This document shows, one piece after another, positions 3,050 to 42,928 of a stretch of 44,170 bases of DNA (its first letter is position 1; every line of letters starts with the position of its first letter). The notes under the pieces were generated by a model that was not told the DNA's origin, ran no database searches, and saw only the letters and a list, made by a program, of their open reading frames with translations. Position numbers and translations under genes: made by a program. This stretch comes from Planctomycetaceae bacterium. GTDB taxonomy: Bacteria; Planctomycetota; Planctomycetia; Planctomycetales; Planctomycetaceae. The stretch is taken from assembly GCA_028291605.1 (NCBI GenBank), contig JAQGHS010000283.1:1-44170 (forward strand), given 5' to 3'.

Positions 3050-3128
3050 CTTATTCGTGTCATTTGTGTGATTCGTGGGTTTTCTCAGGAATTTCTTAAC
3101 CACGAATCTTACGAAATACACGAATAAG
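3050..3128. repeat. Inverted repeat, family B (word type), copy 1
   Basis: cttattcgtgtcatttgtgtgattcgtgg / ccacgaatcttacgaaatacacgaataag. Confidence 0.88.
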
Positions 3129-7220: not shown

Positions 7221-8111
7221 ATGACTGAACTCAACCGTCGAACCTTTCTCGGCAGCACGCTGATCGCAGGCACCGCTGCAGCCGCATTGCAAGCCGCAGA
7301 GCCCTCCGCTGATGTCAGCCAGATCGGCAAAACGCCGCACACCAAATTCGCCGTGAACGTCGAAATGTGGTGGACCAAGCTGCCGTTTCTCGAGCGGATC
7401 AAAATGGCGGCCAAGTATGGGTTTCCCGCAGTGGAAATCTGGCCGTGGCAGGGCCGCGACATTGATGCGATTGCCGGGTTGAGCAAGGACCTCGGCATCG
7501 CGATTGCGCAATTCACCGGCTGGGGTTTTACACCCGGATTGAACGATCCCAAGAACCACCCCGACTTCGTCAAGGCGGTCACCGCGGGTTGTGCTGTCGC
7601 CAAGCGTTTGAATTGCAAATTGATGACCGTCGTCGGTGGTAACGATCAACCGGGAATGACACAGGTCCAGATGCACGACAACATCATCCAGGGACTGAAG
7701 CTGGCCGCGCCCATTGCGGAAGCGAACGATGTCACGTTAATTCTCGAACCGATGAATATTCGCGTCGATCACAAGGGTCATTGCCTGTACGGCAGCGCCC
7801 CGTCGATTCGCATTTGTCAGGCGGTCGGTTCATCGCATGTGAAGATCAACTGGGACCTGTACCACATGCATATCACTGAAGGGGATTTGTGTGGTCACCT
7901 GAAAGAGGGGATCGAAACCAAGACGATCGGTTATTTGCAATTGGCCGATCATCCGGGACGAAATGAACCAGGGACCGGTGAGATCTACTACAACCGCGTC
8001 TTGAAAGAAGCATACGATCTGGGGTATCGCGGATTTGTCGGATTGGAATGCCGGCCCAAGGGGGCCGAGCATGACGCGGCAGTGGCCGTGGCGAAAGCCG
8101 ATATCTGGTAG
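7221..8111 (+). CDS. Sugar phosphate isomerase/epimerase (hydroxypyruvate-isomerase-like TIM barrel), Tat-exported
   Basis: LNRRTFLGSTLIAGTAAAA Tat signal; FLERIKMAAKYGFPAVEIWPW, LILEPMN, INWDLYHMHITEGDL, GYLQLADHPGRNEPGTGEIYY, GFVGLECRP. Confidence 0.88.
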   Translation: MTELNRRTFLGSTLIAGTAAAALQAAEPSADVSQIGKTPHTKFAVNVEMWWTKLPFLERIKMAAKYGFPAVEIWPWQGRDIDAIAGLSKDLGIAIAQFTGWGFTPGLNDPKNHPDFVKAVTAGCAVAKRLNCKLMTVVGGNDQPGMTQVQMHDNIIQGLKLAAPIAEANDVTLILEPMNIRVDHKGHCLYGSAPSIRICQAVGSSHVKINWDLYHMHITEGDLCGHLKEGIETKTIGYLQLADHPGRNEPGTGEIYYNRVLKEAYDLGYRGFVGLECRPKGAEHDAAVAVAKADIW

Positions 8112-8149
8112 ATTGGCTAACAAAACATCGCGTTGGACATGGGAGTATG

Positions 8150-8271
8150 AACCACGAATCACACAAATGACACGAATCTAATTCTTTCAAAGTGTACGCA
8201 AAGAAACAGCGATCCGACTTCCGTAATGATCCAATTCATCCAAATTCGTGTCATTCGAATTATTCGTGGTT
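8150..8271. repeat. Inverted repeat, family B, copy 2
   Basis: aaccacgaatcacacaaatgacacgaat / attcgtgtcattcgaattattcgtggtt. Confidence 0.88.
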
Positions 8272-8526
8272 AAAAGTGCCCTCACTTGCTCAATAAACAA
8301 TGAGCCACGATTTCCAGGTTTTGATAGGCGTTGGTAGAAGAATTCGTAAAAATTCTTAGGTTTGTTCGTATCCAGCGGAAGTCTTACGACGTTACGCTCC
8401 TTGAGGAATGAACGAAAACCAAGTCAGTCAGTTGGTCGAGAGTATAATGGCCGATGGGTTCCGCCAGGGTGGGCGGTGCTCGACAAAATTACCAATCCAT
8501 GCGTGGGCCATGGCGGAATTGAATAC

Positions 8527-9794: not shown

Positions 9795-9866
9795 GGTGAG
9801 CCGGGTGGCGTAAGTCCCCGGATTCTTCGCACCAACAATCCGGGGGCTTACGCCGCCCGGCTCACC
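9795..9866. repeat. Inverted repeat, family D (GC type) between the two GTPase genes
   Basis: ggtgagccgggtggcgtaagtccccggatt / aatccgggggcttacgccgcccggctcacc, 28 of 30 complementary. Confidence 0.92.
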
Positions 9867-19847: not shown

Positions 19848-19910
19848 TGGGACAGAACTCTGAAACGGAGCGATAGAGAATCGATTAGGGGCGGGCGAGG
19901 GGGTGATTTG

Positions 19911-20012
19911 AACCACGAATCATACGAATGACACGAATCCTAAAGACGGACGGCTGTCCCTTTGCATGCAGTTTTCAGGATTTCGATTCGTGTCATTTGT
20001 GTGATTCGTGGT
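19911..20012. repeat. Inverted repeat, family B, copy 3
   Basis: aaccacgaatcatacgaatgacacgaatc / gattcgtgtcatttgtgtgattcgtggt. Confidence 0.9.
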
Positions 20013-20051
20013 CCACACTCTTTTGATCAACGGAATGTTTTGTAAGCCGTT

Positions 20052-21479
20052 CTAGACTAATTCCGGCAACGGTCGATGGTCACCAACCAGATATTGGGGC
20101 CGTCCTGCCAAATCATTGAATTGCGTCGTGCCGACGTCAATTCCCAACTGGTGATAAAGCGTCGCGAACACGTCGCGGAAATGAACCGGACGGCTGAGCG
20201 GCACTTCTCCCCAGCGGGTGCTCGAACCGATGACCTGGCCGTGGCGCATGCCGCCACCAGCCAGTAACGCGCCGGCCACATTGGGCCAGTGGTCTCGGCC
20301 GGCATTGCGATTGACCTTCGGGGTGCGGCCGAACTCGCCCCAGGCGACTACGGCCACGTCGTCCAGCAGCCCGCGTTCTTCCAGGTCTTCGATCAGTGCC
20401 GACAGGCCAAGATCCAACAGCGGCAGCGTCCCGCGGGCTTCATTGAAGACATCCTTGTGCCAGTCCCAGTTGTACGCTCCCTGCAGCATTCGCCCGAACG
20501 GCCAGCGAGTAAACGCCAGCGTCACGCACCGCGCCCCCGCTTCAATCACCCGCCGCGCCAGCAAGAACTGGTCCAGTAAAGTCTTGCCATCACGCTCAAG
20601 GGGGTAGTCCACATCCAGCCCATAACGCCGGCGAGTCCGGCTGTTTTCGCGGCTGAGGTCCAAGGCTTCGGCCAGGCGCGGTGATGTGAGGACCTCAAAC
20701 GCCTGACGGTGGAATTCTTCGATGCCGTCGGTCAGGCCCTCCTGATCCACCTGGCGACGGAAGCGATCAAAGCTCGCCAGCAACGCCCGCCGGTCCGACA
20801 GCCGATCCAAGCTGACTCCATTGAGCATGATGTTCCGACGATCGACCGCCTGCACTTCAAATCCCGCATGGGCGGCCCCCAGGTAGCCCGGCTGGGTCGG
20901 CGGCGTCCGCAGGATGAAACGAGCGTCAGGACCGAGGGGCGTCAAATCCACGCACGGCGGAACACCCAGCACGCGCGGCCCGAATTGCCGCGACAGCACC
21001 GACCCCATCGACGGCCAATCTCCGGGCGGATAACCGGGCACTATAGCCGAGGACGCCATCGGCGGATGCGACTCCCAACCGGTCGAACACCAATGTGTGT
21101 TGTGATCGTCGCGAGCCCCCATCAGCGAACGGATCAGGGTCAGCTTGTCAGCCATACCAGCCAGACGCGGCAATAGCTCGCAGATCTCGGTGCCCGGCAC
21201 ATTGGTTGCAATCGGCCGGAACTCACCGCGGATTTCCGACGGTGCTTCAGGCTTCAGATCATACATGTCCAAGTGAGACGGCCCGCCCGGCAGCAGCACC
21301 ATGATGATGCCTTTGGCCGCACCGGACGCATTCCCAGTTCGGCGAATGCCACTTTGCGCTTCCGACCGCAAGATCTCCGGCAGTGCGAGCCCCCCCAGCG
21401 CCAGTCCGCCAATTTGCAGACAATTGCGGCGCGAGAGACCATCACACGCAGTCGATTTCGGTCCACCGATATTCAGCAT
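20052..21479 (-). CDS. DUF1501 family protein, Tat-exported
   Basis: SRRNCLQIGGLALGGLALPEIL Tat signal; VLLPGGPSHLDMYDLKPEAPSEIRGEF; VVAWGEFGRTPKVNRNAGRDHWPNVAGALLAGGGMRHGQVIG. Confidence 0.92.
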   Translation of the reverse strand: MLNIGGPKSTACDGLSRRNCLQIGGLALGGLALPEILRSEAQSGIRRTGNASGAAKGIIMVLLPGGPSHLDMYDLKPEAPSEIRGEFRPIATNVPGTEICELLPRLAGMADKLTLIRSLMGARDDHNTHWCSTGWESHPPMASSAIVPGYPPGDWPSMGSVLSRQFGPRVLGVPPCVDLTPLGPDARFILRTPPTQPGYLGAAHAGFEVQAVDRRNIMLNGVSLDRLSDRRALLASFDRFRRQVDQEGLTDGIEEFHRQAFEVLTSPRLAEALDLSRENSRTRRRYGLDVDYPLERDGKTLLDQFLLARRVIEAGARCVTLAFTRWPFGRMLQGAYNWDWHKDVFNEARGTLPLLDLGLSALIEDLEERGLLDDVAVVAWGEFGRTPKVNRNAGRDHWPNVAGALLAGGGMRHGQVIGSSTRWGEVPLSRPVHFRDVFATLYHQLGIDVGTTQFNDLAGRPQYLVGDHRPLPELV

Positions 21480-23380: not shown

Positions 23381-26300
23381 ATGGCTCTCGAATCATTTCA
23401 TCCTTTGATTCAGCGGTGGTTTCAGTCGCGATTTGCAGGTCCCACCGAGCCGCAGCGTGAAGGCTGGCCCCATATCGCGGCCGGTCGCGACACGCTCATT
23501 GCCGCGCCGACGGGCTCCGGCAAGACCCTGACCGCCTTTCTCGCCGCGATTGACCGGTTGCTTAAACTGAGTGTCGCGGGCGAATTGCATGATACTCTGC
23601 GAGTCATCTACGTCTCGCCGTTGCGAGCCTTGTCCAACGACATGCAGCGTAACCTGCAGACGCCCCTGGACGAAATCTTCGCTCTGGCCGCGCAGGAAGG
23701 ATTGGAAATCGCCCCGATCCGTGTTGGATTGCGCACCGGCGATACGCCAGCCAAAGACCGGGCGGCGATGACTCGCCGGCCACCGCATATTCTCGTCACG
23801 ACGCCCGAATCGCTCTATCTGCTGCTGACGGGCAAAAAAAGCCGCGAACGCATGCGACACGTCGAGACGGTCATCGTCGATGAGATCCACGCCCTCGTGC
23901 GAGACAAGCGTGGCTCGCACTTATCGCTGTCGCTGGAACGTCTGGTGGCCCTGTGCGAGCGGCCTCCGCAACGGGTGGGGTTGTCCGCGACCCAGCGACC
24001 GATTGAACTCACCGCCGAGTTCCTGATCGGAGCCCGCCCCGTGGCCGACGCTGCTAGCGTCGGCGTCCAAGTCGCTACTGATACTCTAGATCAGAATACA
24101 AATGCCGATGCTGGCAGCGTCGGCCACGGGACGCTGCCGACTTCCAACGGTAAATCTAAACCTGCAACGAAACAACGTTCATTATTTTCAGACGATGACA
24201 TCGAGCCGCTTGCCGCCGTCTCTCAACCGCTCTTTCCGCCAATCCAGCCGATTGGCCAATCTGTTGCCGAGCGTTGCGTCATCATCGATGTTGGCCACCG
24301 CCGGCAACTTGACCTCGCTATTGAAACGCCCCTCACCGAAATTGGTGCCGTATGCACCCATGAGCAATGGGCCGAGGTCCATGAACAGATCATCGAACTG
24401 ATCAAGGCCCATCGCAGCACGCTGATCTTCGTCAACACACGGCGTCTGGCGGAACGCGTCACCCATCAGTTGTCGGAACTGCTCGGTCCCGATCAAGTCA
24501 GCAGCCATCACGGCTCGTTGTCGGCGAAGTCACGGCAGGATACCGAACTGCGATTGAAATTCGGCCAGCTCAAGGCGGTCGTCGCGACAGCCTCATTGGA
24601 ACTCGGGCTGGATGTCGGCTACATCGACCTGGTGATTCAAATCGGATCACCACGCGCCATCGCCACATTCCTGCAACGCGTGGGCCGCTCGGGGCACGCC
24701 TTGGGCTTAATCCCCAAGGGACGGCTGTTTGCCCTCACACGCGATGAATTAATCGAATCGATGGCGGTCATCCGAGCAGTACGACAGGGGATCCTCGACA
24801 AGATTCTCATTCCGGAAGCGCCGCTCGATATTCTGGCCCAGCAGATCGTCGCCGAGGTCGCTCATCAAGACTGGCAAACGGATGACTTGTTCGCCTTAGT
24901 CCGCCGAGCTTATCCCTATCGAAATTTGCCGCGGGCCAAGTTTGACGCGATTGTGCATATGCTGAGCGAAGGGATCGCGACCGCGACCGGCCGCAGCCGC
25001 ATCTATGTCCATCACGATCAAGTCGGCCGTCGCCTGCGGGCTCGCAAAGGAGCAGGCATTGCCGCCGTGATGGGAGGCGGGGCGATCCCTGAAATCGCCA
25101 CGTATCGCGTTGTCGCTGAGCCTGATAACACGGTCGTCGGCAGCCTCGACGAGGACTTCGCAGTCGAGAGTACGCGTGGGGATGTGTTTCTGCTGGGAAA
25201 TACATCCTGGCGGATCATGAACGTGCGCGGGGGCGACGTCAACGTGGTCGATGCCGGCGGCGCACCACCGACTATCCCCTTCTGGTTTGGCGAGGCACCC
25301 GGCCGGACTCTCGAGCTGTCGGCCGAAGTTTCTCGGCTGCGCGAGGATCTCTCGGCCCGTGTGATCGATCCGGTGGAAGCGGAAAACTGGCTCGTCGCGG
25401 AAACCTCCTGCAAGCCTGAAGCCGCGAAGCAAACAGTGCTGTACGTCACCGCGCAGAAGGCCGCGATTGGACTGGTGCCGACTCAAAAACAAGTCGTATT
25501 TGAACGCTTTTTTGATGAGAGCGGCGGTATGCAGCTCGTGATCCATGCCCCGTTCGGCGGCCGCATCACGCGGGCCTGGGGTATGGCCATGCGCAAGCGG
25601 TTCTGCCGTTCGTTCGACTTCGAACTGCAGGCGACCGCCGACGATGACGGCATCATTCTGTCGCTCGGCCCGCAGCATAGCTTTCCCCTGGAAAGCATGT
25701 TCGCGATGCTCAACCCGCAGAATGCCCGCAACCTGCTGGAACAAGCGGTCCTGGCGAATCCCATGTACCAGACCCGTTGGCGGTGGAATGTGATCCGCGC
25801 ACTGCAGGTCATGCGAAGCTCCGGCGGTAAGAAGGTCCCGCCGCCGTTGCTGCGATTTCGTTCGGACGATTTGCTGACCGCCGTCTTCCCCAAGCTGACC
25901 GGCTGCAAGGAGGAGATCGTCGGGGACATCCCGGTTCCCGACCATCCGCTCGCGCAGCAGACAATGGAAGACTGCATGTTCGAGGCCCTCGATATTCAGG
26001 GTTTGCAGGATGTTCTGCAGCAAGTGGTGGGACATGACATCACCCTCGTTCCGCGCGACACGCGAGAGCCTTCCCCCTTCTGCTATGAGTTATTGAACGC
26101 GAATCCGTATGCCTTCCTGGACGGGGGCGAACTTCAAGAACGCCGGACTCGCGCGGTCAACACGCGACGTTCACTCACGGTCGAAAGTGTGAGCGATCTG
26201 GGACGCCTTGATCCGCTGGCGATTGAACGTGTACGCCGCGAGGCCCAGCCACTGATCCGCGACGCCGACGAACTGCACGACGCGATGTTGAGCCGCATTC

Positions 26301-28138
26301 TGTTGCCGCTCGAAGAGGGTGAAGTTTACACCCCGTGGTTCAATCAATTGGCAAATGCCGGACGGGCAACAACTGTCACCGTGACGGCGCCAGAACCGGA
26401 GCACGCTCCGTCACCGCGGACTCGAACGTATTGGGCTCCGACCGAGCGTTTACCCGCGGTGCGAGTGGCCTATCCCGGCGCGGAGCTCGGCAAGGAACTT
26501 CCCGTTCCTGAAGGAGTGCAAGCGGATTGGACCGACATCGACGCACGAATCGCACTCGTTCGCGGATATCTCGATTCCTGCGGCCCGACGACCGCTGCGG
26601 TGGTTGGGGAGCTACTCAGTCTGCCTGAACGCCAAGTATTCGCCTGCCTGGAATACCTCGAAGGCGAAGGGGTCATTCTGCGCGGACGGTTTACTCCCGA
26701 GGGAGTCCGCTTCGTCGGCGAACAGACGCTGACCATTGAACACAGCCGGCCGGAAGAAGACGCTGAGCAGCCGGCAGCCGATCCACCCATTGAATGGTGT
26801 CATCGAAGGTTATTGGCCCGTATTCACCGCCTGACCTTGGAAGGCTTGCGGAAAGAAATCGAGCCCGTCGAGGTCGACACCTTCATACGCTTCCTGATGC
26901 GGCATCAGGGACTTGCCGCTGGAGGGCGACTGACCGGCACGAACGGCGTCTATCAAGTCCTGGGACAACTGCAGGGAATTGACGTCCCCGCCGTCAGTTG
27001 GGAGCGAGACTTGCTTCCGGCCCGCGTCGAAAAATATCAACCGACGTGGCTCGACGAACTGTGTCTGACCGGCGAAATCGGCTGGGGGCGAATCTTCCCA
27101 CCGAAGCGCGATCCCGACCGCAGTCGTCCCATGGCCAGCCTGACGCGAGTCGCGCCGGTGTCGATTTTCTTGCGGGAAGACATTGTCTGGTTAACCGCCC
27201 GCAGCCCGGTGCTGGATCCGCAAACCCTCAGCAGTCCGGCGCAGGAATTATTCGAACTATTGACAGCCCGCGGGGCCATGTTCGCGGCCGACATTTTGTC
27301 CGCGACTCGATTATTACCGGCTCAATTGGACGACGTGCTGGGTGAATTGATTACGCAAGGCTTCGTCACCGCCGACGGATTCGGTGGCTTGCGCCGACTC
27401 ATCGCCAGCAAGTCGTCCACTAACGGCCGCGATTCGCACGGACTGCGCCGCGGGGCCGTTCGCACACGGCAATCCACCTCGGGAGTCGGCCGCTGGTCCC
27501 TCTGGCGAACAGCCGCCGATCCCGCACTGGCCCCGGAATCGCTCACCGAGCAATGGGCCTGGCAACTGCTCAGGCGTTGGGGAGTCATGTTCCGCGACTT
27601 GTTGACACGCGAAGCCGGCGCCCCGCAATGGTGGGAATTGGTCCAAGTCTACCGCCGACTGGAAGCCCGCGGTGAGATTCGCGGTGGCCGCTTCATTACG
27701 GGTGTTGCCGGAGAGCAGTTTGCATTGGGCGATACCATTCGGACCCTGCGTCAACTACGAGATGAACCTGGCGAACAGGAACTTGTGGTGATTTCCGGAG
27801 CCGATCCGCTGAATCTGGTGGGGATCATAACTCAACACCCTCGAGTCATCAGCACGGCCTCCAACCGCGTCGCCTATCTCAACGGCAAGCCGCTGGCGGC
27901 ATTGCAAGGGGGAGAAGTTCTTCGCTTCAGTGACATCCCGCGCGAGATTGAAAAAGTCCTTGCGGAGAAGTTCCGGTTGGAGTTTATGGAAGATTCCGTT
28001 CTGGCTCCGGAGGTCACTCCACCTGCTGTTGATAATGTGCCGCCTCCGGTTCCCCCCAGCGTTCCTCGCGATAGCAAGCCTAAACGAGCGAGCGGGCCCA
28101 GATATCCCAATAGCATTCCGCGACCGCGGATTTCATGA
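23381..28138 (+). CDS. lhr: Full-length Lhr-type DEAD/DEAH superfamily 2 helicase
   Basis: 1585 aa; AAPTGSGKTLTAFLAAID, VIYVSPLRALSNDMQRNL, TTPESLYLLL, IVDEIHALVRDKRGSHLSLSLERL, GLSATQRP, FVNTRRLAERV, VATASLELGLDVGYIDLVIQIGSPRAIATFLQRVGRSGH. Confidence 0.93.
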   Translation: MALESFHPLIQRWFQSRFAGPTEPQREGWPHIAAGRDTLIAAPTGSGKTLTAFLAAIDRLLKLSVAGELHDTLRVIYVSPLRALSNDMQRNLQTPLDEIFALAAQEGLEIAPIRVGLRTGDTPAKDRAAMTRRPPHILVTTPESLYLLLTGKKSRERMRHVETVIVDEIHALVRDKRGSHLSLSLERLVALCERPPQRVGLSATQRPIELTAEFLIGARPVADAASVGVQVATDTLDQNTNADAGSVGHGTLPTSNGKSKPATKQRSLFSDDDIEPLAAVSQPLFPPIQPIGQSVAERCVIIDVGHRRQLDLAIETPLTEIGAVCTHEQWAEVHEQIIELIKAHRSTLIFVNTRRLAERVTHQLSELLGPDQVSSHHGSLSAKSRQDTELRLKFGQLKAVVATASLELGLDVGYIDLVIQIGSPRAIATFLQRVGRSGHALGLIPKGRLFALTRDELIESMAVIRAVRQGILDKILIPEAPLDILAQQIVAEVAHQDWQTDDLFALVRRAYPYRNLPRAKFDAIVHMLSEGIATATGRSRIYVHHDQVGRRLRARKGAGIAAVMGGGAIPEIATYRVVAEPDNTVVGSLDEDFAVESTRGDVFLLGNTSWRIMNVRGGDVNVVDAGGAPPTIPFWFGEAPGRTLELSAEVSRLREDLSARVIDPVEAENWLVAETSCKPEAAKQTVLYVTAQKAAIGLVPTQKQVVFERFFDESGGMQLVIHAPFGGRITRAWGMAMRKRFCRSFDFELQATADDDGIILSLGPQHSFPLESMFAMLNPQNARNLLEQAVLANPMYQTRWRWNVIRALQVMRSSGGKKVPPPLLRFRSDDLLTAVFPKLTGCKEEIVGDIPVPDHPLAQQTMEDCMFEALDIQGLQDVLQQVVGHDITLVPRDTREPSPFCYELLNANPYAFLDGGELQERRTRAVNTRRSLTVESVSDLGRLDPLAIERVRREAQPLIRDADELHDAMLSRILLPLEEGEVYTPWFNQLANAGRATTVTVTAPEPEHAPSPRTRTYWAPTERLPAVRVAYPGAELGKELPVPEGVQADWTDIDARIALVRGYLDSCGPTTAAVVGELLSLPERQVFACLEYLEGEGVILRGRFTPEGVRFVGEQTLTIEHSRPEEDAEQPAADPPIEWCHRRLLARIHRLTLEGLRKEIEPVEVDTFIRFLMRHQGLAAGGRLTGTNGVYQVLGQLQGIDVPAVSWERDLLPARVEKYQPTWLDELCLTGEIGWGRIFPPKRDPDRSRPMASLTRVAPVSIFLREDIVWLTARSPVLDPQTLSSPAQELFELLTARGAMFAADILSATRLLPAQLDDVLGELITQGFVTADGFGGLRRLIASKSSTNGRDSHGLRRGAVRTRQSTSGVGRWSLWRTAADPALAPESLTEQWAWQLLRRWGVMFRDLLTREAGAPQWWELVQVYRRLEARGEIRGGRFITGVAGEQFALGDTIRTLRQLRDEPGEQELVVISGADPLNLVGIITQHPRVISTASNRVAYLNGKPLAALQGGEVLRFSDIPREIEKVLAEKFRLEFMEDSVLAPEVTPPAVDNVPPPVPPSVPRDSKPKRASGPRYPNSIPRPRIS
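24041..24126. repeat. Inverted repeat, family K, inside the Lhr coding sequence
   Basis: gtggccgacgctgctagcgtcggc / gccgatgctggcagcgtcggccac, 22 of 24 complementary; first arm is itself gccgacgct-gct-agcgtcggc. Confidence 0.9.
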
Positions 28139-28140
28139 TA

Positions 28141-28310
28141 GTCGTTGATCGCTCCGCGATCAAACGTCTTCGTCCGTAGGATAGGCAGCCTGCCTGTCGA
28201 CTAATATTTCTTGAATGGACAGGCAGGCTGCCTATCCTACGACAACTCCAATCGCACTCTAGCCCGTCGGCCGATCGACGAAGACGTATGATCGCGGAGC
28301 GATCAACGAC
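28141..28310. repeat. Nested double inverted repeat (outer 34-bp arms, inner perfect 24-bp arms)
   Basis: Outer 28141-28174 / 28277-28310, 33 of 34 complementary; inner cgtaggataggcagcctgcctgtc 28175-28198 / gacaggcaggctgcctatcctacg 28218-28241, perfect. Confidence 0.95.
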
Positions 28311-28332
28311 ACTCACCGTCCGCCGCCTTCGC

Positions 28333-31300
28333 CTAGAACGCCGCCTTGGCCTTAATTCCCTGCGTCTTGTTCTGCAACAGGCCGCGGTAGTTGTCGCGTT
28401 GCAGACGGTTGATGCCACCGTTCTGCTGACGCAAACCTTCCAGCAACGAATCCTTCCCATCGGTCTCTCGGCGAGCCTCGCCGGGCTTTCCTTCGCCCTT
28501 CTGTTCGACCTGTTGTGACGGCACAGCCACTGTCCCCAACACCGTCTTACCGCGGAAGAACGCATAGCGATTCGCGTCCGTCTTGGCGATGACGGTGCTC
28601 GTCCCGTTGATGCCATCTGCCACAAAAATCCCGCGCAGATCGGTTTGACCCGATTGGAAATGATCGTTCGCGCTGCCGATGACTTTCACATGAACCGCGT
28701 GAGCGTACTTGTCGGCGACGGCATCCTTGACTGTGACGCGGACCCGGCCACTCGTCGCATCTTCTTGAACTTCCAAAACTAACGGGCTGACGAGAACCAG
28801 ACCGCTCGTATAAAGATTGTCACCCTGGCACACCACCAGATAGGCTCCTTCTTCTTTCAATGGCAGTTCGAGTTCTTGTTCGCGGTCGCGGTAGTCTTTT
28901 CCTTCACCCAACTTCACCGTCAGGTCGTGATAGGGGCGAATACCAGCCAGATTGATCGCCGTGATCCGACTGAGGTTGCGATTGAGCAACCCGAACTTTA
29001 ACAAGTCGATCCGATAGACCTTGATGGTCGCCCCGGTCACGTTGCGGAACTTGAGCGGCACCTTGCCTGGAGCTCCAGGTTTCACCGTGGTGACTTCGGG
29101 CAGCGACAAGTCTTTGCGAGTGAAGAAATCAATCGCTTCCTTGGCATCGGCAAACCGGTCTTTCACCCGATCATATTCGCCAATCGCTTCGGCGGCTTTA
29201 CCCAGGCTGTGATAGACTTGGCCCATGATGTAGATCGACTGCCAGTGATTGACGGCCATCGTTTCGGCCTTCGTCTGGGGATCGACCTTCTTCCAGTCGG
29301 CCACCTTACGGCACATTTCGAGAGCCGCCGCATGTTTGCCTTGGGCAAACTGGCTGTAACCGATGACATACCAGAAGCTGTCAAGCAACTTGCTGTCGGG
29401 ATACCGTTTCGCAAACTGATCACATCGAGCGATGACATCCGAGTATCTTTCGAGATCCAGCAACGCATTGGCCAGCGAGAAACTCGCCTGATCCGCAGCG
29501 GGGTCGGTCGGCCACGTCGCGATGAAGTGATCGAGCATCTGGACCGACGTGGCGATCAAATCAACGCGAGTAAGCCCCGCCTCACGCAACCGAGCGTTCT
29601 GCGCGGCTTCGGGAGCCTTACCATAGACTTCCTGGGCCAAAGCATAGGTGGATGTCGCGATGTAAGGCTCAGCCGGATAGGCCCGCAGCAGTTGTTCCAT
29701 CACCTGGACCGACCGCAGGAATTCGCCCCGTTCATCGAGGAATCCAGCGATCTGGCTTTCCCGTTGGAATCCGGCTTCGAGGGTCGCTCGATAGACCAGA
29801 TAGCTGCGTTCGTATTCGCCAAGTTCGCGATAGGATTCAGCAACCTTGAGGATATTCTCGAACGAGACTTCTACCTCTGGCAGTTTTTCCTTGATCGTTT
29901 CGAAGTACTGCACGATGTCGGCAGGACGGTTCGCCGACAGTGATGTCTGGAAGAGCATCTGCACGACCTCACCATAGATGTCGCTCAACTTATAAGCCTT
30001 GAAGAGCCGGCTGAGATGTGTATCGGCGAGCACGAAATCCCCGCGGGCGAAGTAGCGTTTGCCGAATTCGTAATCTTCTTCCGGAGTCAGCTTGTACTCA
30101 TCTTTGGAAGCGACGCCACGCGGCAGAACGGTCAGCGGGTCAGCTTTGGCCACGCGGAACTTCGCCGGGTTATAGAAGCTGCGAACGACCGCGGGACGAC
30201 GCAGATAGCGGCCCGGCACATAGCCGACCACATCAAACTTGATCCGCCCCGGTTGGAAGCGGTCGCCCAGGTAGAAGGTGATCGAGCTCGGGCCGACTTC
30301 GTAGCGCTCGAACTGCCCGGTAATCGTTTCCGTCAGTACCGACACGCCGGCCGGCAACGGTTCTGTATAGATCAAATACTGACGGTGTTCGTTCGGCAGA
30401 TTCGAGGCATTAGAACGCCAGATATCGACCGTGACTTCGCCCCGTTCGCCAACAGGAACTTGCGTAAAGGGACTGCTGAAATGTTGATACGGAGCATGCA
30501 GATGATTGAATCCGCGCGGGATGACTTCGCCATCCAGCATCCGGTGCGCGGGCTCATAGACGCGATTGATATTCATCGTATATTGGTCTTCAGTACTCTC
30601 GGCAGCGGCCGACGGCACGAAACCCGTCAGAATGGCGCTGTAGCTAAACTGGCCTCGCCCTTCGATGTCGAGGTTCACCCGTTGCGGCTTGTCCGCCACC
30701 AGGAATTTCGCGGGAATCGGGACCGAAGCACTCGGCTGAGTGCTAGGATCGACCGCCAGCTTGGTCACTAATTTGTCATTCACAAAAATCGACAACGTGT
30801 ACTTCTCCGGAACAAGTTTGGCTCGACCAAACCAATCGGCCAAAGCCATCACGATCGGTCCGTTCGCCTTCTCAGGCTGCCAGCGAGATCCCATGCGGGC
30901 TCCCAACAACCAGTTGGCGATCTCCTCAGATCCCGGCGCGGCCGGAGTGAGTGCATTCAAGGCCAGCAGATACAGGCCGCGCACTTCGGCGCCGGAGTAC
31001 ATCCACGGCATACAGCCCGCTAGTCCCTTGTCTTCGATGGCTTGAGCAGCGGGCAAGGGCAGCAGCTTGGACTTCGCCAAGGCGAGTACTTCGCCCGCCA
31101 TGGGCTTCCGATCCATCGCCAGTAGTGCCAGGCTGAGATGCACCAGTGCCGACGCATTCAAATCGTTACGCAAGCGATGCAATCGATTGAGATGTGCAAA
31201 GTCACACGCCCCGGCTTCTGCCAGACCATGCAGCACGATCGCTCGATTTTCGTGATCGTCTTCCGTGCTGTTCGCGAATGCCGATTGGAGATATTGAATC

Positions 31301-34300
31301 CCCTTGTCGAAACTTTGTTGCGGTACTGCAAACCCAGATTTCCGAGCGGCAGACATCGACCAGACCACGCGACTACTGAGATAGCGATCGGGCTGTTCGG
31401 CCTTGGTGACGCCAGACCAACTCCAGCCGCCATCTTCACGCTGGCTGCTGATCAACAGGGCCAGTCCGGCCTGGACCCGACCCGCGAGTTCCCGAGCTTC
31501 GGGGACATTGGAATGCCGGCTTTGACCGAGCATCTTAAGCAGGCTGACTCCGCCCAAGACATCGGATACGGCACGTTCGATATTGCTGCGCGGTGCGTAA
31601 GCGGACCGCTCCCAATTCCCCGAGGCTCCGCCCAGAACGGCTTCCAGCAGAGTGCGATTGACGCTCGGTCCGATCAACAATTCCAGCGACGGTTGTTGAG
31701 CCTTCACGTTGTCCGGGAACTTGATCTGGAAAGACGTATTTTGAGCCGATGTACCACCCGCCGTGGCATAGACGGGAATGCCGTCGGGTTCAATCGCAAC
31801 AGTCCGACTCAGGCTGTCCTTGAGTTCGCCGCTTGTGACTGTCAATTCGAAATCAGCCTTCGTCCCCGCGGTGATCGTCACCGGGAAGCTGACTTCCGAA
31901 ATACCGGGGACCTTGGCGTCGATGACTTGTTTCAATTCGGTTGACGCATCGCCGATCGTCGTCTTCAACTTGACTTCGATCTTGGCGTCCTTCAACACGG
32001 CGTTATGAACTTCCACCAGAACTTGCCCCTGATCTCCCACGACATAGGCCATCGGCGTCTGAATCTCTGCAAACAAATCTTCCTTAGTAATCAGTTCCGC
32101 TTCCGCCTTACCCGCCAGTGCGACCTTATTAATTCCCTGCGACTTGATCACCCAGGCCGTCGACCGATCCGGCATGACCAGCGTGACGACGGCTTTCCCC
32201 GCGGCATCCGTGAGTAACAACGGATTCCAATAGCCGGTCTCGGCCGCTCGCTGGGCTGTGACCAGTTGCATGCCGTCTTCGGCCAGACGTTTGAGATCGT
32301 TGACCGAACGGCCGTTGACGACCTGCAGTTCTCCGGAGTGATTCAAACCATAAAGTGGCGTTTGCGAATTCGACAGGACTTTGAATGCCCAGGCGTCATC
32401 AACCCCGTTTGCGACCGCGGTTCCGTCCGAGTAATTCGCGACGGCCTCGTTGATCTCGGCGAATGAATAATCACGTTGGCTCTGAGTCTGCTCGATCCTT
32501 AACGACAGTGTTTGTTGTTCCCATGAGAGAGTTCCTCCTTCGCCGTCCACGGATTGCCAATCCCCATTCGCGTCCCCCAACTTCAAGGAACTGTCCTTTT
32601 TGTTGACACCACTTCGGCGACGGAAGGCGGAACTGAGAGAACGCTTGGCGTCCGCCGCGCCTTTCGCTTCGCCAGCGGCCTGCTCCTCCAACAGTTCCTC
32701 GGTTTCGGCATCTTGCAACGCATTTTGATTCGCGGCTTCTGCCTTGTCGGCCCGGCCAAACCCAAGCCCCACGGCCTCCTTTCGCTTCTCGGACTGTGCC
32801 TTCTTGCCGGCCATTCTGCCCCCCATGCCACCACCACCAACACCACCAGTCGGCTTGCTCGCCGCCGCGCTCTCTGGTCCGTTGGCCGCCGCCGGCGCCG
32901 CAGGTTGCAGTCGGTCCGAGATCAATTGCTTGGCAGCTTCTTCTGCGGTGGATGTTTTCAGACGTTCCGTTTCCGCGAGGAGAAACTCGTTGATCGGCCG
33001 CGTCGAAGGATGGTATTGGAAGGTGCAGCTCGTCATCACGCGACACGAGATTTCCCGTGATCCGCCATTGAAGAACGCGGTGATGGCCGCAGCACGATCA
33101 GGGAATCGCTGCAGCAAATTCTTCTGGATTAGTCCCAGCGACAACTCGGTCTGCACCGGTTTGCCCTGGGCATCGGTCACCAGCACTTCCACCGCCACCG
33201 GTTCGCCCGGCTTGAGAGTGGTCTTCGCGGGCTTGAGAGTAATCAGCAGCTCGCGAGCCACCCGGAAGTCGGCGCGTGCTTCGTGATACTTGTTGGCCTG
33301 CATCACGGCGACGGACAACTGGAAGTTGGGGGCCAGATACTCGGCAAAACTGATATCGAGTGGGTTGGCACCAGTCTTGAGCTCCACCAGTTGATGTCCG
33401 AGGACCGTGGCCCCTTCGAACGTCACGAGCGCCAGGGCCGGTTCCTCGCGCCAGTGCAGTTGCACTCGGCCCTGGTCACCCGCTTTGTAATGATGCTGAT
33501 CCGCCAGAATTCGCAGCCGGACCTGGTCGTCCTGACCCGAAATATAGAGAGGGTGCGAACCGCTGACAGCATGACCAAAACGGTCGGTTCCGGTGGCTCG
33601 CAAGATGTAGCGCCCGGGCTTGTCGAGTCGCACCGTGTTCCGCCCTTCGCCCAGTTTGTCGTCGGATTTCAGTTCCTTCGCCGAGAGTCGCGACTCGCCG
33701 GTGCCGGTCGCAGTTTGAGTCACTTCGAGGATCTCAAAGTTGAGGGCCGTGGCCACTGGCTTACCGGCAGGATCACGTACCGAAATCGTGGCATCGAACG
33801 TTTCACCCGTGACATAGACATCACGAATGGTTTTGATCCCGATTTCGAACCCGCGGGTCGCCAGGAAAATCGTCTCACCCGCGGCCAGATTACGTTCGGG
33901 GAAGCTGGCCACTAATTGGACGGGTTGCGCCTCACTATAACGTTGCGTCGGGAGATCGAAGGTGACCTCGCCCTTGGCATCGGTTGTGGCTGTCCACAGT
34001 CGGTCATCACCTAAACGATATTGAATCGCCCGACCCGCCAACGGCGATCCGTAGTAGTACTTGAGAGTGAATTTCCCCTTCACGTGTTCGCCGCGATAGT
34101 AAACCGTTTGCGGCAGCTCCACGCTGAACTGGATGGGTTCGAGTTGGTATTCTTGTACGATGAAATTCATCTCGTACGCCTGTTCGCGGCCGGGCTGATA
34201 GACGTGGACCCGGTACTGTCCCGCCTGCGCTTGCTCGGGCAGTTGCCAGTGGGCGGCGAACGTGCCGAATTCACCAAGTGCCACCTCTTGCGTATCGATC

Positions 34301-36726
34301 ACGCGGCCTTGAGCGTCGTACACATCAAGCTGGTATTTCTCTCCGACTTTATAGGTATAGCGGTCATCAGCGACCCAGCGAATGATGCCTTTCATGTTTA
34401 CTAATTGTCCGGCGCGATACGCCGGCCGATCGGTATAGAGATACCCTTTGGAGGACAACCCGACCGAGAACTGCAAACCTTCCAGACCAACTTGGCTGCT
34501 GGCTGCGTGCTTGTCAGTAAAGCCAAACACTCGCAGGTCCGAGACCGTCTTCAGCTCGTCGAACTTCTGCTGCAGGATTCCGTCTTTGCCCGTCGAGACT
34601 TCCGCGAAGACCTTGCTGCCGTCGCTCACCAGGAGCTTGACGTTGTCGGCAGGCTTGCCGGTCAGCATGTTTTCGGCGAACACAAACAGCTCATTGCGTG
34701 AGCTCTTCACGATGATGTCGAGATCACTGACGACGACCATCGTGGTGGCTTCGTGGGTTTCACTACTGACGGTGACGGCCGTGACCCCGGGCCCGTCCAC
34801 AGGGATCTCTACAGACTGTTCTAGCTTGCGATATTGCTCGTAGTTGGCGACGACATGCTCGAGACTTTTGTCAGGATCAATTAAGGCGATATCGAGGGAC
34901 TCGACGCCTGACGCCAGATGCAGCTTGCGGAAGTAGTCGGTTAGATCGATACGATAAAGTTTTACCGAGACGTTCTTCAGATTCCGCGTGGTGATTTTGA
35001 TCACCGGCTTTTCGGTACTACGGAATTTGCGTTCGGTGATGATTTCCAACTGTGGCGATGTCAACGCGGCCAACCGCTGTTGGGCCTCACCCTGTGCCGC
35101 CCCGGTCACCTTGCGATAGGCCTCAACGGCCTCGGACAGTTTTCCCAGTCGTTCTTCGAGCGTCACGCCAATCATCAGGCTGGCGCGAGAGGCCTCATTA
35201 GTATCGGGGTACTTGCTGACGAGTCGCTGCCAGTCTTCCAACGCCGCTGCGAGTAGCTTGTTGATGTCAGCCTGTTGTTCTGCGGTCAGTTTTGCCGGAG
35301 CCTTCACTGACGTAGAAATCTTCACCGCGGCGTCATACTGCATCTGACCGAATCGATAGAGGATCAGAGCCACGCGGGGATCGAGCGGATATTTGTTAAG
35401 GAACGTCTCCCATGCTTGGCGGGCGGCTGGAAAATCCTGCTGTGTAAATTGCTCTTCGGCCGCAGCAAATTCGGTGTCGATAATCACGCGCTGCACGCCG
35501 CTCCATTTGGGATCGGTGGGGAATTTGTCGAGGAACGAGCGCCAGGCGGCGATGGCCTCCGCGAACTTCTTCTGGGCCGCATAGGCCGTCCCCAGCAGGT
35601 TCCACGCAGCCGGGATCTGGGGGGCACTCGCATACTGTTCGTTGGCAATCAAGCCCTTCAAAACCGTGATGGCCTGATCGTGCCTTCCGTGATGCAGGTA
35701 ACTTTGCGCTCGGTTGAATTCCGCTTCTGCAGCCAAAGGGTGCTTGGGAAAATTCTTGACGAACTGCTCCAGCACTTCGACGCCCAGTTCCAAATCACCA
35801 ATGGTCGGTGGCTGTGGGATGCCGTAGGTCTTGGCCAATCGATAGCTGGCCTCTGCAATCAGCGTCCCGCCCGCTTCCTTCGAGACATCGTTCGTCAGGA
35901 AATCTTGCCAGGTCTTCCGAGCCTCGGCCGGCTGACCAGCGTCCAATTGCGTTTGACCAAGTTGAAACAGGGCTTCGGCGGCCAGCTTCGGGGCAGCTCG
36001 CTTGGGGCCGGGTGTCTTCGGTTGAGCGTAATTGGCGATAAACTTCTGATATGCGGCGAGGGCTTCATTAACTTGTTTGAGCTCCTGATGGCACCGGGCA
36101 ATTCGCAGCTCGATCTGCTGCTGCACGGACAGTCCAGGGCGTAGTTGCAATGCCTGTTGATAGTAGTTGAGCGCCTGAGCATAGTCGGGATCCTGCTTGG
36201 GTTTCGGCCCGGCGGCGGGGACACCCTCGAAGTAGCGATTCGCAAATTCCAGGTAAATCGCGGTCAGCTCGTCGCGACGACCGGCGGACAACAAACGGTC
36301 GGCTTCCGCTTTGTAGATGGCTCCTGCCAGTTGATAGTTGCGTTTCTTGGCCAGGACTGTTGCCTGACCAAATCGCGACCGTGAGAACCACGGCGACTTC
36401 GGATAGTCCTTTTCCAGCCGGGCGAATGTTTCGAGCGCCGCGTCGTTCTGGTCCTGTTCGGTCTGAGCTCGGCCCTTGAGATAGAGCAGGTAATCGCCCG
36501 GAGTCACCGCCAGCTTGGGGTCAGCTTCGGCCAGAGCGGCATCGATCAGCTTGACTGCCGCCGCAAAATCCCGACTCTGCAAGGCGTCCCGTAGTTCAGC
36601 CGAGAGTTTTGGGAGACTGGTAATGGCTGGTTTCTTGATTTCGGCCGGGTTGGTTTCGACACCAAACAACGCTCCGAACAATCCGGCAACCAACGCCACG
36701 ACGAGCACGCTGCGGCTGATCGACAT
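28333..36726 (-). CDS. Giant alpha-2-macroglobulin family protein with N- and C-terminal TPR regions (start at 36726; ORF track 36795)
   Basis: Signal peptide MSISRSVLVVALVAGLFGALFG; multiple TPR-like repeats; YLYTDRPAYRAGQLVNMKGIIRW (MG domain), A2M-like LLTDAAGKAVVTLVMPDRSTAWVI, QAGLALLISSQREDGGWSWSG. Confidence 0.85.
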   Translation of the reverse strand: MSISRSVLVVALVAGLFGALFGVETNPAEIKKPAITSLPKLSAELRDALQSRDFAAAVKLIDAALAEADPKLAVTPGDYLLYLKGRAQTEQDQNDAALETFARLEKDYPKSPWFSRSRFGQATVLAKKRNYQLAGAIYKAEADRLLSAGRRDELTAIYLEFANRYFEGVPAAGPKPKQDPDYAQALNYYQQALQLRPGLSVQQQIELRIARCHQELKQVNEALAAYQKFIANYAQPKTPGPKRAAPKLAAEALFQLGQTQLDAGQPAEARKTWQDFLTNDVSKEAGGTLIAEASYRLAKTYGIPQPPTIGDLELGVEVLEQFVKNFPKHPLAAEAEFNRAQSYLHHGRHDQAITVLKGLIANEQYASAPQIPAAWNLLGTAYAAQKKFAEAIAAWRSFLDKFPTDPKWSGVQRVIIDTEFAAAEEQFTQQDFPAARQAWETFLNKYPLDPRVALILYRFGQMQYDAAVKISTSVKAPAKLTAEQQADINKLLAAALEDWQRLVSKYPDTNEASRASLMIGVTLEERLGKLSEAVEAYRKVTGAAQGEAQQRLAALTSPQLEIITERKFRSTEKPVIKITTRNLKNVSVKLYRIDLTDYFRKLHLASGVESLDIALIDPDKSLEHVVANYEQYRKLEQSVEIPVDGPGVTAVTVSSETHEATTMVVVSDLDIIVKSSRNELFVFAENMLTGKPADNVKLLVSDGSKVFAEVSTGKDGILQQKFDELKTVSDLRVFGFTDKHAASSQVGLEGLQFSVGLSSKGYLYTDRPAYRAGQLVNMKGIIRWVADDRYTYKVGEKYQLDVYDAQGRVIDTQEVALGEFGTFAAHWQLPEQAQAGQYRVHVYQPGREQAYEMNFIVQEYQLEPIQFSVELPQTVYYRGEHVKGKFTLKYYYGSPLAGRAIQYRLGDDRLWTATTDAKGEVTFDLPTQRYSEAQPVQLVASFPERNLAAGETIFLATRGFEIGIKTIRDVYVTGETFDATISVRDPAGKPVATALNFEILEVTQTATGTGESRLSAKELKSDDKLGEGRNTVRLDKPGRYILRATGTDRFGHAVSGSHPLYISGQDDQVRLRILADQHHYKAGDQGRVQLHWREEPALALVTFEGATVLGHQLVELKTGANPLDISFAEYLAPNFQLSVAVMQANKYHEARADFRVARELLITLKPAKTTLKPGEPVAVEVLVTDAQGKPVQTELSLGLIQKNLLQRFPDRAAAITAFFNGGSREISCRVMTSCTFQYHPSTRPINEFLLAETERLKTSTAEEAAKQLISDRLQPAAPAAANGPESAAASKPTGGVGGGGMGGRMAGKKAQSEKRKEAVGLGFGRADKAEAANQNALQDAETEELLEEQAAGEAKGAADAKRSLSSAFRRRSGVNKKDSSLKLGDANGDWQSVDGEGGTLSWEQQTLSLRIEQTQSQRDYSFAEINEAVANYSDGTAVANGVDDAWAFKVLSNSQTPLYGLNHSGELQVVNGRSVNDLKRLAEDGMQLVTAQRAAETGYWNPLLLTDAAGKAVVTLVMPDRSTAWVIKSQGINKVALAGKAEAELITKEDLFAEIQTPMAYVVGDQGQVLVEVHNAVLKDAKIEVKLKTTIGDASTELKQVIDAKVPGISEVSFPVTITAGTKADFELTVTSGELKDSLSRTVAIEPDGIPVYATAGGTSAQNTSFQIKFPDNVKAQQPSLELLIGPSVNRTLLEAVLGGASGNWERSAYAPRSNIERAVSDVLGGVSLLKMLGQSRHSNVPEARELAGRVQAGLALLISSQREDGGWSWSGVTKAEQPDRYLSSRVVWSMSAARKSGFAVPQQSFDKGIQYLQSAFANSTEDDHENRAIVLHGLAEAGACDFAHLNRLHRLRNDLNASALVHLSLALLAMDRKPMAGEVLALAKSKLLPLPAAQAIEDKGLAGCMPWMYSGAEVRGLYLLALNALTPAAPGSEEIANWLLGARMGSRWQPEKANGPIVMALADWFGRAKLVPEKYTLSIFVNDKLVTKLAVDPSTQPSASVPIPAKFLVADKPQRVNLDIEGRGQFSYSAILTGFVPSAAAESTEDQYTMNINRVYEPAHRMLDGEVIPRGFNHLHAPYQHFSSPFTQVPVGERGEVTVDIWRSNASNLPNEHRQYLIYTEPLPAGVSVLTETITGQFERYEVGPSSITFYLGDRFQPGRIKFDVVGYVPGRYLRRPAVVRSFYNPAKFRVAKADPLTVLPRGVASKDEYKLTPEEDYEFGKRYFARGDFVLADTHLSRLFKAYKLSDIYGEVVQMLFQTSLSANRPADIVQYFETIKEKLPEVEVSFENILKVAESYRELGEYERSYLVYRATLEAGFQRESQIAGFLDERGEFLRSVQVMEQLLRAYPAEPYIATSTYALAQEVYGKAPEAAQNARLREAGLTRVDLIATSVQMLDHFIATWPTDPAADQASFSLANALLDLERYSDVIARCDQFAKRYPDSKLLDSFWYVIGYSQFAQGKHAAALEMCRKVADWKKVDPQTKAETMAVNHWQSIYIMGQVYHSLGKAAEAIGEYDRVKDRFADAKEAIDFFTRKDLSLPEVTTVKPGAPGKVPLKFRNVTGATIKVYRIDLLKFGLLNRNLSRITAINLAGIRPYHDLTVKLGEGKDYRDREQELELPLKEEGAYLVVCQGDNLYTSGLVLVSPLVLEVQEDATSGRVRVTVKDAVADKYAHAVHVKVIGSANDHFQSGQTDLRGIFVADGINGTSTVIAKTDANRYAFFRGKTVLGTVAVPSQQVEQKGEGKPGEARRETDGKDSLLEGLRQQNGGINRLQRDNYRGLLQNKTQGIKAKAAF

Positions 36727-36971
36727 AATGCATTCCCCGAAATTCTTTGAAGTGCAGCCAGACGCTGTGAGTCGTTGGCTGTTTGATTCTCTCAAGTCAG
36801 TTTGCGCAAAGTCTCACGGAGATATCGCTCTACCCTCACGAAAGATTAGGTCGTCGAATAGGACCGAGGGGCAGTGGAGGCAATTCTACAGTCGCGCTGC
36901 ACCGCGCAACTAATTAGACAACAATTACTTACGGGGGTTTGGGAATCCTCGAAGCAGTCAGACGACAGCGA

Positions 36972-42427: not shown

Positions 42428-42770
42428 TCATCAATCAGTGACGCGAAAGTTTCACATCAAAACGTGATTCCGAACGAATCGGTCGTCATGAAAAGAAAGG
42501 GGCGAGGAATTCCGCCCTGTGGTGAGCCACGTGGAAATCCTGCCGCCCCAATAATGCGGGTGAAGTCCACGGAAACTCCCGATGCGAACAGGCGTTTCGA
42601 ATCAACCTGCTCGGCGAGACTCATTCTCGCAGTCAACTCGTTCGTCACAGCATCCTACCGTGAGACCCGTGAGATTGCCACGCTCTACGAGTTACCGGTT
42701 TGATGTCGCCACCGGATGGGAGAGATGCGAGTGCCTAGCTTCTGAAATCGCTAGAGTTTACGAATTCCGC

Positions 42771-42917
42771 CGTGGGATAGGCAGCCTGCCTGTCATTTGT
42801 CACCCCAGGTGACAAACCCGAATTCCATTCATCTCCCGATCGCCAATTCGATTTCCGTAGACCTCTGGTTCAGCGTTTTGTCGCTTCGCGATTGACAGGC
42901 AGGATGCCTATCCTACG
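42771..42917. repeat. Inverted repeat, family G, copy 2, enclosing a separate 9-bp hairpin
   Basis: cgtgggataggcagcctgcctgtca / tgacaggcaggatgcctatcctacg, 23 of 25; inner tttgtcacc-cca-ggtgacaaa at 42796-42816. Confidence 0.92.
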
Positions 42918-42928
42918 GGGAAAAAAAG

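Follow-up and report, generated by a model that had tools for sequence, protein, structure and literature searches.

The closest described counterparts of the element studied here are REPs, defined by a hairpin with a loop of 2-5 nt and a fully paired 7-20-nt stem, preceded within 0-2 nt on its 5' side by a GTAG or GTGG tag (PMC6006769), and REPINs, which were described in the extragenic space of Pseudomonas as inverted REP pairs with a variable spacer (Bertels and Rainey 2011, PMC3116915). REPs are also found inside genes: a 2013 catalogue (main text of PMC3733652) lists intragenic REPs from both superfamilies. Over half of them were dimers or groups that encode 20-30 residues, and many were in DNA-repair genes, for which a functional role was speculated. 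The same main text reports that Opitutus terrae, of the PVC superphylum, has units with a GTGG tag, that GTAG repeats occur in Planctomycetes, and that two Xanthomonas recB genes hold different REPs at nearly the same position. Rickettsia palindromic elements (RPEs) form another group of reference, within which that text assigns RPE-4 and RPE-6 to the repeats with a CGTC tag and no partner transposase, and RPE-1 to longer palindromes.

The element described here is a GTGG-tagged palindrome in the lhr gene of a Planctomycetaceae bacterium, contained in a window of 44,170 nt (the whole stretch of DNA analysed). It shares with REPINs the inverted REP pair, the variable spacer that is less conserved than the arms, and the presence at many places, mostly intergenic; it differs in belonging to a planctomycete family, in being in frame in seven genes, and in that a cognate RAYT (REP-associated tyrosine transposase) was not found beside its own REP among 67 Y1_Tnp loci. 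The GTAG-superfamily REPs, as presented in the main text of PMC3733652, have in common with it the short hairpin with a GTRG tag at its base, the head-to-head dimers and the intragenic dimers adding 20-30 residues. Here, however, the stem sequence and the host are new, the gene is one that does not appear in that main text (Lhr), and a single reading frame is used in seven genes, with empty alleles in sister species. RPEs, too, are palindromes that occur both between genes and, in frame, inside unrelated proteins, but they belong to another phylum and, as reported, to another type, being set apart by description and not by sequence. In-frame REPs were published in 2013, and the GTGG element therefore belongs to a known kind, behaving like RPEs. 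The GTGG family, its strict frame over the seven genes and the recurrence of insertions at the Lhr linker across lineages look new, as no description of them was found in the open-licence literature.

It is very probable that the lhr element is a genus-dispersed REP dimer in REPIN format, presumably moved by a RAYT, whose in-frame copy lies in a linker of the helicase that is predicted to be disordered and most likely has no function of its own.

The palindromic element of lhr

The features of the window that concern the element are the following:

23381-28138, + strand: lhr (large helicase-related protein), host gene of the element; open reading frame of 1585 aa with Pfam domains
24032-24282, + strand: variable RecA1-RecA2 linker of Lhr, 84 residues long and predicted to be disordered (orthologue comparison and AlphaFold2)
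24035-24133, + strand: full inverted repeat with 30-nt arms (24035-24064 and 24104-24133), 27/30 complementary (90%) and 39 nt apart; repeat search
24038-24130, + strand: REP dimer in REPIN format, CCCGTGG...CCACGGG; 93 nt = 31 codons, encoding PVADAASVGVQVATDTLDQNTNADAGSVGHG; comparison made with 62 further dimers of this family
24041-24064, + strand: REP unit 1 (arm 1, GTGGCCGACGCTGCTAGCGTCGGC); GTGG tag at 24041-24044, 8-bp stem at 24045-24052/24056-24063, 3-nt loop
24065-24103, + strand: inter-unit spacer of 39 nt, at the long end of the family range (2-40 nt in nearly all dimers)
24104-24127, - strand: REP unit 2 (arm 2, GCCGATGCTGGCAGCGTCGGCCAC), inverted; one stem mismatch (T at 24109), intact in the closest relative, G003

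Unit 1 corresponds to the canonical REP definition (GTGG, 8-bp stem, 3-nt loop), and unit 2 deviates from it at its single stem mismatch. An earlier note on this DNA had described arms with 22 of 24 positions complementary, which agrees with the sequence, the arms in fact extending to 27/30; of the coordinates given there, 24041-24126, the start was right and the end fell one base short of that of arm 2 (24127). When folded as single-stranded DNA the element reached -38.1 kcal/mol (z = -7.7), a value that none of 200 shuffles equalled. Rfam gave no match at the gathering score for the lhr element, the best being a microRNA model that scored 30.6 bits where the cut-off is 149, which is taken as a chance match on a long hairpin.

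Lhr contains the Pfam domains DEAD, Helicase_C, DEAD_assoc, WH_Lhr, WH3_Lhr and WH4_Lhr. The insertion leaves the reading frame open from 23381 to 28138 and adds residues 220-250, bearing out the earlier claim that it is in frame within the helicase gene, and the insert is presumably translated. The element encodes the first part of the 84-residue linker, which is flanked by the blocks GLSATQRPIELTAEF and CVIIDVGHRRQLDLAIE; in the mycobacterial structures 7LHL/5V9X the corresponding linker has ~8 residues (226 to 234, 7LHL chain) versus ~85 here. An AlphaFold2 model of residues 1-630, built from 29 sequences, had a pLDDT below 50 at residues 223-291 and mostly of 70-95 in both flanking domains, so that the insert is predicted to start at the edge of the disordered RecA1-RecA2 linker and to lie almost wholly within it. 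Downstream of lhr, at 28333-36795 of the window on the - strand, there is an open reading frame of 2820 codons.

A dispersed family of GTGG-tagged dimers

Copy counts were obtained by pattern and BLAST searches of genomes, including that of the window species (G000), a metagenome assembly of 9.1 Mb in 1049 contigs with 87% completeness. The dimers of the family consist of two inverted 24-nt units, GTGG-CCGACGCT-NNN-AGCGTCGG, with the GTGG tags outermost. Pattern search for the exact unit GTGGCCGACGCTNNNAGCGTCGGC found 29 copies in G000, 51 in G003 and 35 in G002, giving the many dispersed, mainly intergenic copies in three species that are typical of REPs; small numbers were detected in eight other genomes of the bacterial family among those searched, and no exact copy was present in the fourth congener, G001. 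The reversed unit pattern, used as a control, had 0 occurrences in the genomes searched. With the whole lhr element as BLAST query, 112 matches were found in the window species' genome. The exact units and the BLAST matches, most of them between genes, confirm the earlier expectation of other genomic copies, intergenic ones included. The family is dispersed in one planctomycete genus and present in a few related genera. A chance palindrome in lhr was ruled out by the copy number, the reversed-pattern control and the shuffled folds.

The copies that were read share one design, with CCGTGG and a hairpin, a spacer of mostly 2-40 nt, and an inverted hairpin followed by CCACGG. All the inverted pairs (62/62) carry GTGG outermost, as in a REPIN with its variable spacer, and no pair with tags facing inwards was found within 60 nt. 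The tag is present in 197 of 209 units, in a search that tolerated just one tag mismatch. These units were gathered without using the outer three pairs of the stem, and the second stem pair is C-G in 156 of them, A-T in 30 and G-C in 18; this position is paired in 204/209 units, compared with a shuffle mean of 127 and a maximum of 143, and the pairing is therefore maintained or templated in the family, with no formal probability attached since related copies are non-independent. Paired stem changes were also found between orthologues; examples are the G002 TIM-barrel gene, whose arm 1 has CAGACGCT/AGCGTCTG, and the G003 U32 gene, with CGGACGCT/AGCGTCCG in its arm 1.

A second copy of the U32 peptidase gene (L306 and L310, G000:C1043) has an in-frame element with an identical change in both arms, where the loop and inner stem were replaced by NNCAAAAAA, as if by arm-to-arm copying. 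At five other loci of G000 and G003 (L008, L226, L242, L244 and L245), GTGG dimers are located within longer repeated stretches, with flanks such as TTTGAACTCTTTGAATTCTTTGAACTC.

In-frame copies in seven genes

The sample comprised 124 distinct element loci from three species, and a supported coding frame was found only for the copies in seven genes, whose proteins gain ~16 to 31 amino acids:

lhr: in-frame element in G000 and G003; absent from G002 and G001
BatA/vWA protein gene: in-frame element in G000 and G003; absent from G001
U32 peptidase gene: in-frame element in G000 and G003
AP_endonuc_2 TIM-barrel protein gene: in-frame element within the Pfam domain in G000, G003 and G002
L233, large protein gene: element in G003 only (QWDPVGDAASVPADAGSVGHEAVPRRTAT); G000, G001 and G002 read QWDD-QHKTAT or close variants
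L267: in-frame element in G002 and G003, not in G001
L270: in-frame element in G002 only, as part of a longer composite insert

L233, L267 and L270 have no Pfam hit, and their support comes from conservation on both sides of the insert. This in-frame insertion into several unrelated conserved proteins is the behaviour known from RPEs. The likeness to RPEs proposed in the earlier note therefore holds for the insertions in seven unrelated genes, but the GTGG-tagged hairpins make the REP/REPIN dimer the better-fitting class.

All seven genes translate the element as VADAASVG...ADASSVGHG, although an alternative frame, WPTLLAS...PTLAASAT, is also stop-free. With four always-open phase combinations, equal odds assumed and the genes taken as independent, the chance of the same combination in seven genes is ~0.0002. 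The single-frame statement is based on open reading frames that have over 290 residues in addition to the element. Many others run across elements in a different frame; being short and without an orthologue or Pfam test, they are probably spurious and were left out. Most likely, the small polar residues of the frame used would be tolerated and WPTLLAS would not. Most surviving copies are intergenic, and a few in-frame landings in permissive protein loops would have survived selection.

Presence and absence among relatives

The lhr insertion is common to the window species and its closest relative, G003, with 8 differences in the spacer and the frame kept in both. Its arrival in the linker, predicted to be disordered, would probably date to the common ancestor of these two species. 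Fragmented metagenome assemblies such as that of G000 fail at repeats, and the element could in principle be misplaced in this organism's lhr by assembly or binning; this is extremely improbable, given that in the separately assembled G003 this insertion occupies an identical position, with those spacer differences and an intact frame.

In G002, lhr has ~60 nt of unrelated sequence where the element sits, and in G001 a much longer unrelated linker. Both species carry other linker sequence, and there is therefore no clean empty site at lhr. The earlier expectation that the closest relatives should lack exactly this segment was not borne out, as G003 has it, and G002 and G001, which lack it, differ in the linker. 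Conservation of the segment in distant Lhr orthologues, the finding that had been named as contrary to an insertion, was not observed, distant Lhr proteins lacking it. A remnant of the element in the G002 linker was also considered and rejected, with the best local match, CGGCCACG, being reached by 23% of shuffles and without a fold signal.

Clean empty sites were found in sister species at L233, L270 and several intergenic copies. Of seven intergenic copies checked in the window species, five have a counterpart in G003; at L024 that species has a longer insert keeping parts of the element, and at L019 a different REP dimer, GTAGCCCGACTC...GAGTCGGGCTAC, instead of the GTGG dimer. G002 lacks the element at all five comparable intergenic sites. 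An apparent scarcity of intergenic positions shared by G000 and G003 was a sampling effect, as the direct search found 5/7 sites filled in G003. The presence and absence between sister species, in two genes and several intergenic sites, fits mobility, as far as can be judged from sequence comparison, and loss is possible at some sites.

The comparison of G000 and G003 also bears on whether the insert is under selection, with the REP-encoded peptide or a hairpin in the lhr mRNA altering helicase activity or expression. The arms are 93% identical between the two species versus 88% for the rest of the gene, and third positions are 84% identical (16/19) in the arms versus 68% (327/479) in the rest of lhr. 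Such a role would also agree with the unrelated dispersed palindromes found in the same Lhr linker in other lineages (see below) and with the over-representation of REPs in repair genes reported in the main text of PMC3733652. However, the arm conservation concerns 19 codons and could be explained by arm-to-arm templating or young age, G002 and G001 keep lhr without the insert, and the same family is found in unrelated proteins (vWA, U32 peptidase and TIM barrel), which makes selection for the insert improbable. The 31-residue insert is most likely without a function of its own.

Transposases and neighbouring REP families

The PF01797 profile detected 8 Y1 transposases in G000 and 29 in the three congeners. 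Repeated GTAG or GTGG hairpins flank 5/67 Y1_Tnp loci, and RAYT genes of the same genus with inverted GTAG or GTGG hairpin flanks are found at L060, L116, L129 and L141. The RAYT gene of L129 is flanked by GTGGCACAGGTTCTTGAACCTGTG, and elsewhere its hairpin turns up a few times, in three of the four genomes; the Y1 transposase gene of L141, in G003, is flanked by the same GTAG REP that occupies the L019 site in that species. The GTGGCCGACGCT hairpin was found near 0/67 Y1_Tnp loci, in genomes that are fragmented and where some loci stop at contig ends (G002:C216 and G000:C199).

The GTGG dimer at the L019 site (G000:C410) is thus replaced in G003 (L359, G003:C24) by a GTAG dimer of a RAYT-linked family, a third species having neither, and at L246 a GTAG dimer of the L141 type is nested inside the spacer of a GTGG dimer. 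The GTGG family therefore shares its landing site and format with a RAYT-linked REP family. Spread without a RAYT, through template switching at hairpins, gene conversion between copies or another transposase, would agree with the finding that no RAYT adjoins a GTGGCCGACGCT hairpin among the 67 Y1_Tnp loci, and with the second U32 copy, where the same change in both arms resembles arm-to-arm copying. We regard it as doubtful, however, since the GTGG tag, stem and loop match the canonical REP definition, the landing site is shared with the RAYT-linked GTAG REP, and the genus contains other RAYT-REP systems. Movement of the GTGG element in trans by a RAYT is the best inference, the copies most likely spreading as single-stranded hairpins.

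Other palindromic families are found in the window. Right after lhr, at 28136-28315, there are nested palindromes, with an outer 39-nt inverted repeat around a dimer of GTAGGATAGGCAGCCTGCCTGTC (28176-28240). This GTAG REP is expanded in the window species, with 325 matches at up to 2 mismatches in G000, 39 in G003, 2 in G002 and 0 in G001. A second dimer, at 42760-42923, resembles the GTAGGATAGGCA family. A further palindromic family, formed by GGTGAGCCGGGYGGCGTAAGYCCCCGGATTCTT and its inverse, is found at 9795-9866, and at L022, L039, L047 and L049 the GTGG element is inside or beside copies of this family. AT-rich inverted repeats, mostly around CCACGAATCACACAAATGACACGAAT, are located at 2371-2535, 3050-3128, 8109-8280 and 19907-20054.

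The Lhr linker in other lineages

The length of the Lhr linker ranged from 9 to 180 residues among the sequences compared. Palindromes were found in the Lhr linker of four other genomes, and the numbers of further matches given here are approximate, as the query was concatenated and some repeats are of low complexity:

G015 (L094): palindrome with 30-nt arms and one mismatch; several dozen further matches in its own genome
G136 (L146): palindrome with 27-nt arms; over ten further places in its own genome
G135 (L178), contig named Nitrospira: palindrome with 19-nt arms; about a dozen weaker matches
G006 (L072): palindrome; just three partial matches in its own genome

The repeats of L094, L146, L178 and L072 are in frame and unrelated to the GTGG element. 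With these genomes counted, dispersed palindromes have come to lie at the Lhr linker independently at least three more times, and probably four.

A broader proposal can be put forward only tentatively, the balance leaning against it: the Lhr linker might be a cross-phylum landing pad where unrelated palindromes become fixed in frame, coding REP inserts being filtered to one frame, and REPs might be a recurring source of linker sequence in a repair helicase, possibly affecting its activity.

Outside Rickettsia, the GTGG family clearly illustrates how a mobile palindrome from between genes becomes protein sequence, sister species providing the empty alleles, and the Lhr linker is one spot where separate lineages gained unrelated repeats. 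The Lhr inserts allow one to ask whether such additions change the working of a repair enzyme or are neutral, and why the frame is always the same.
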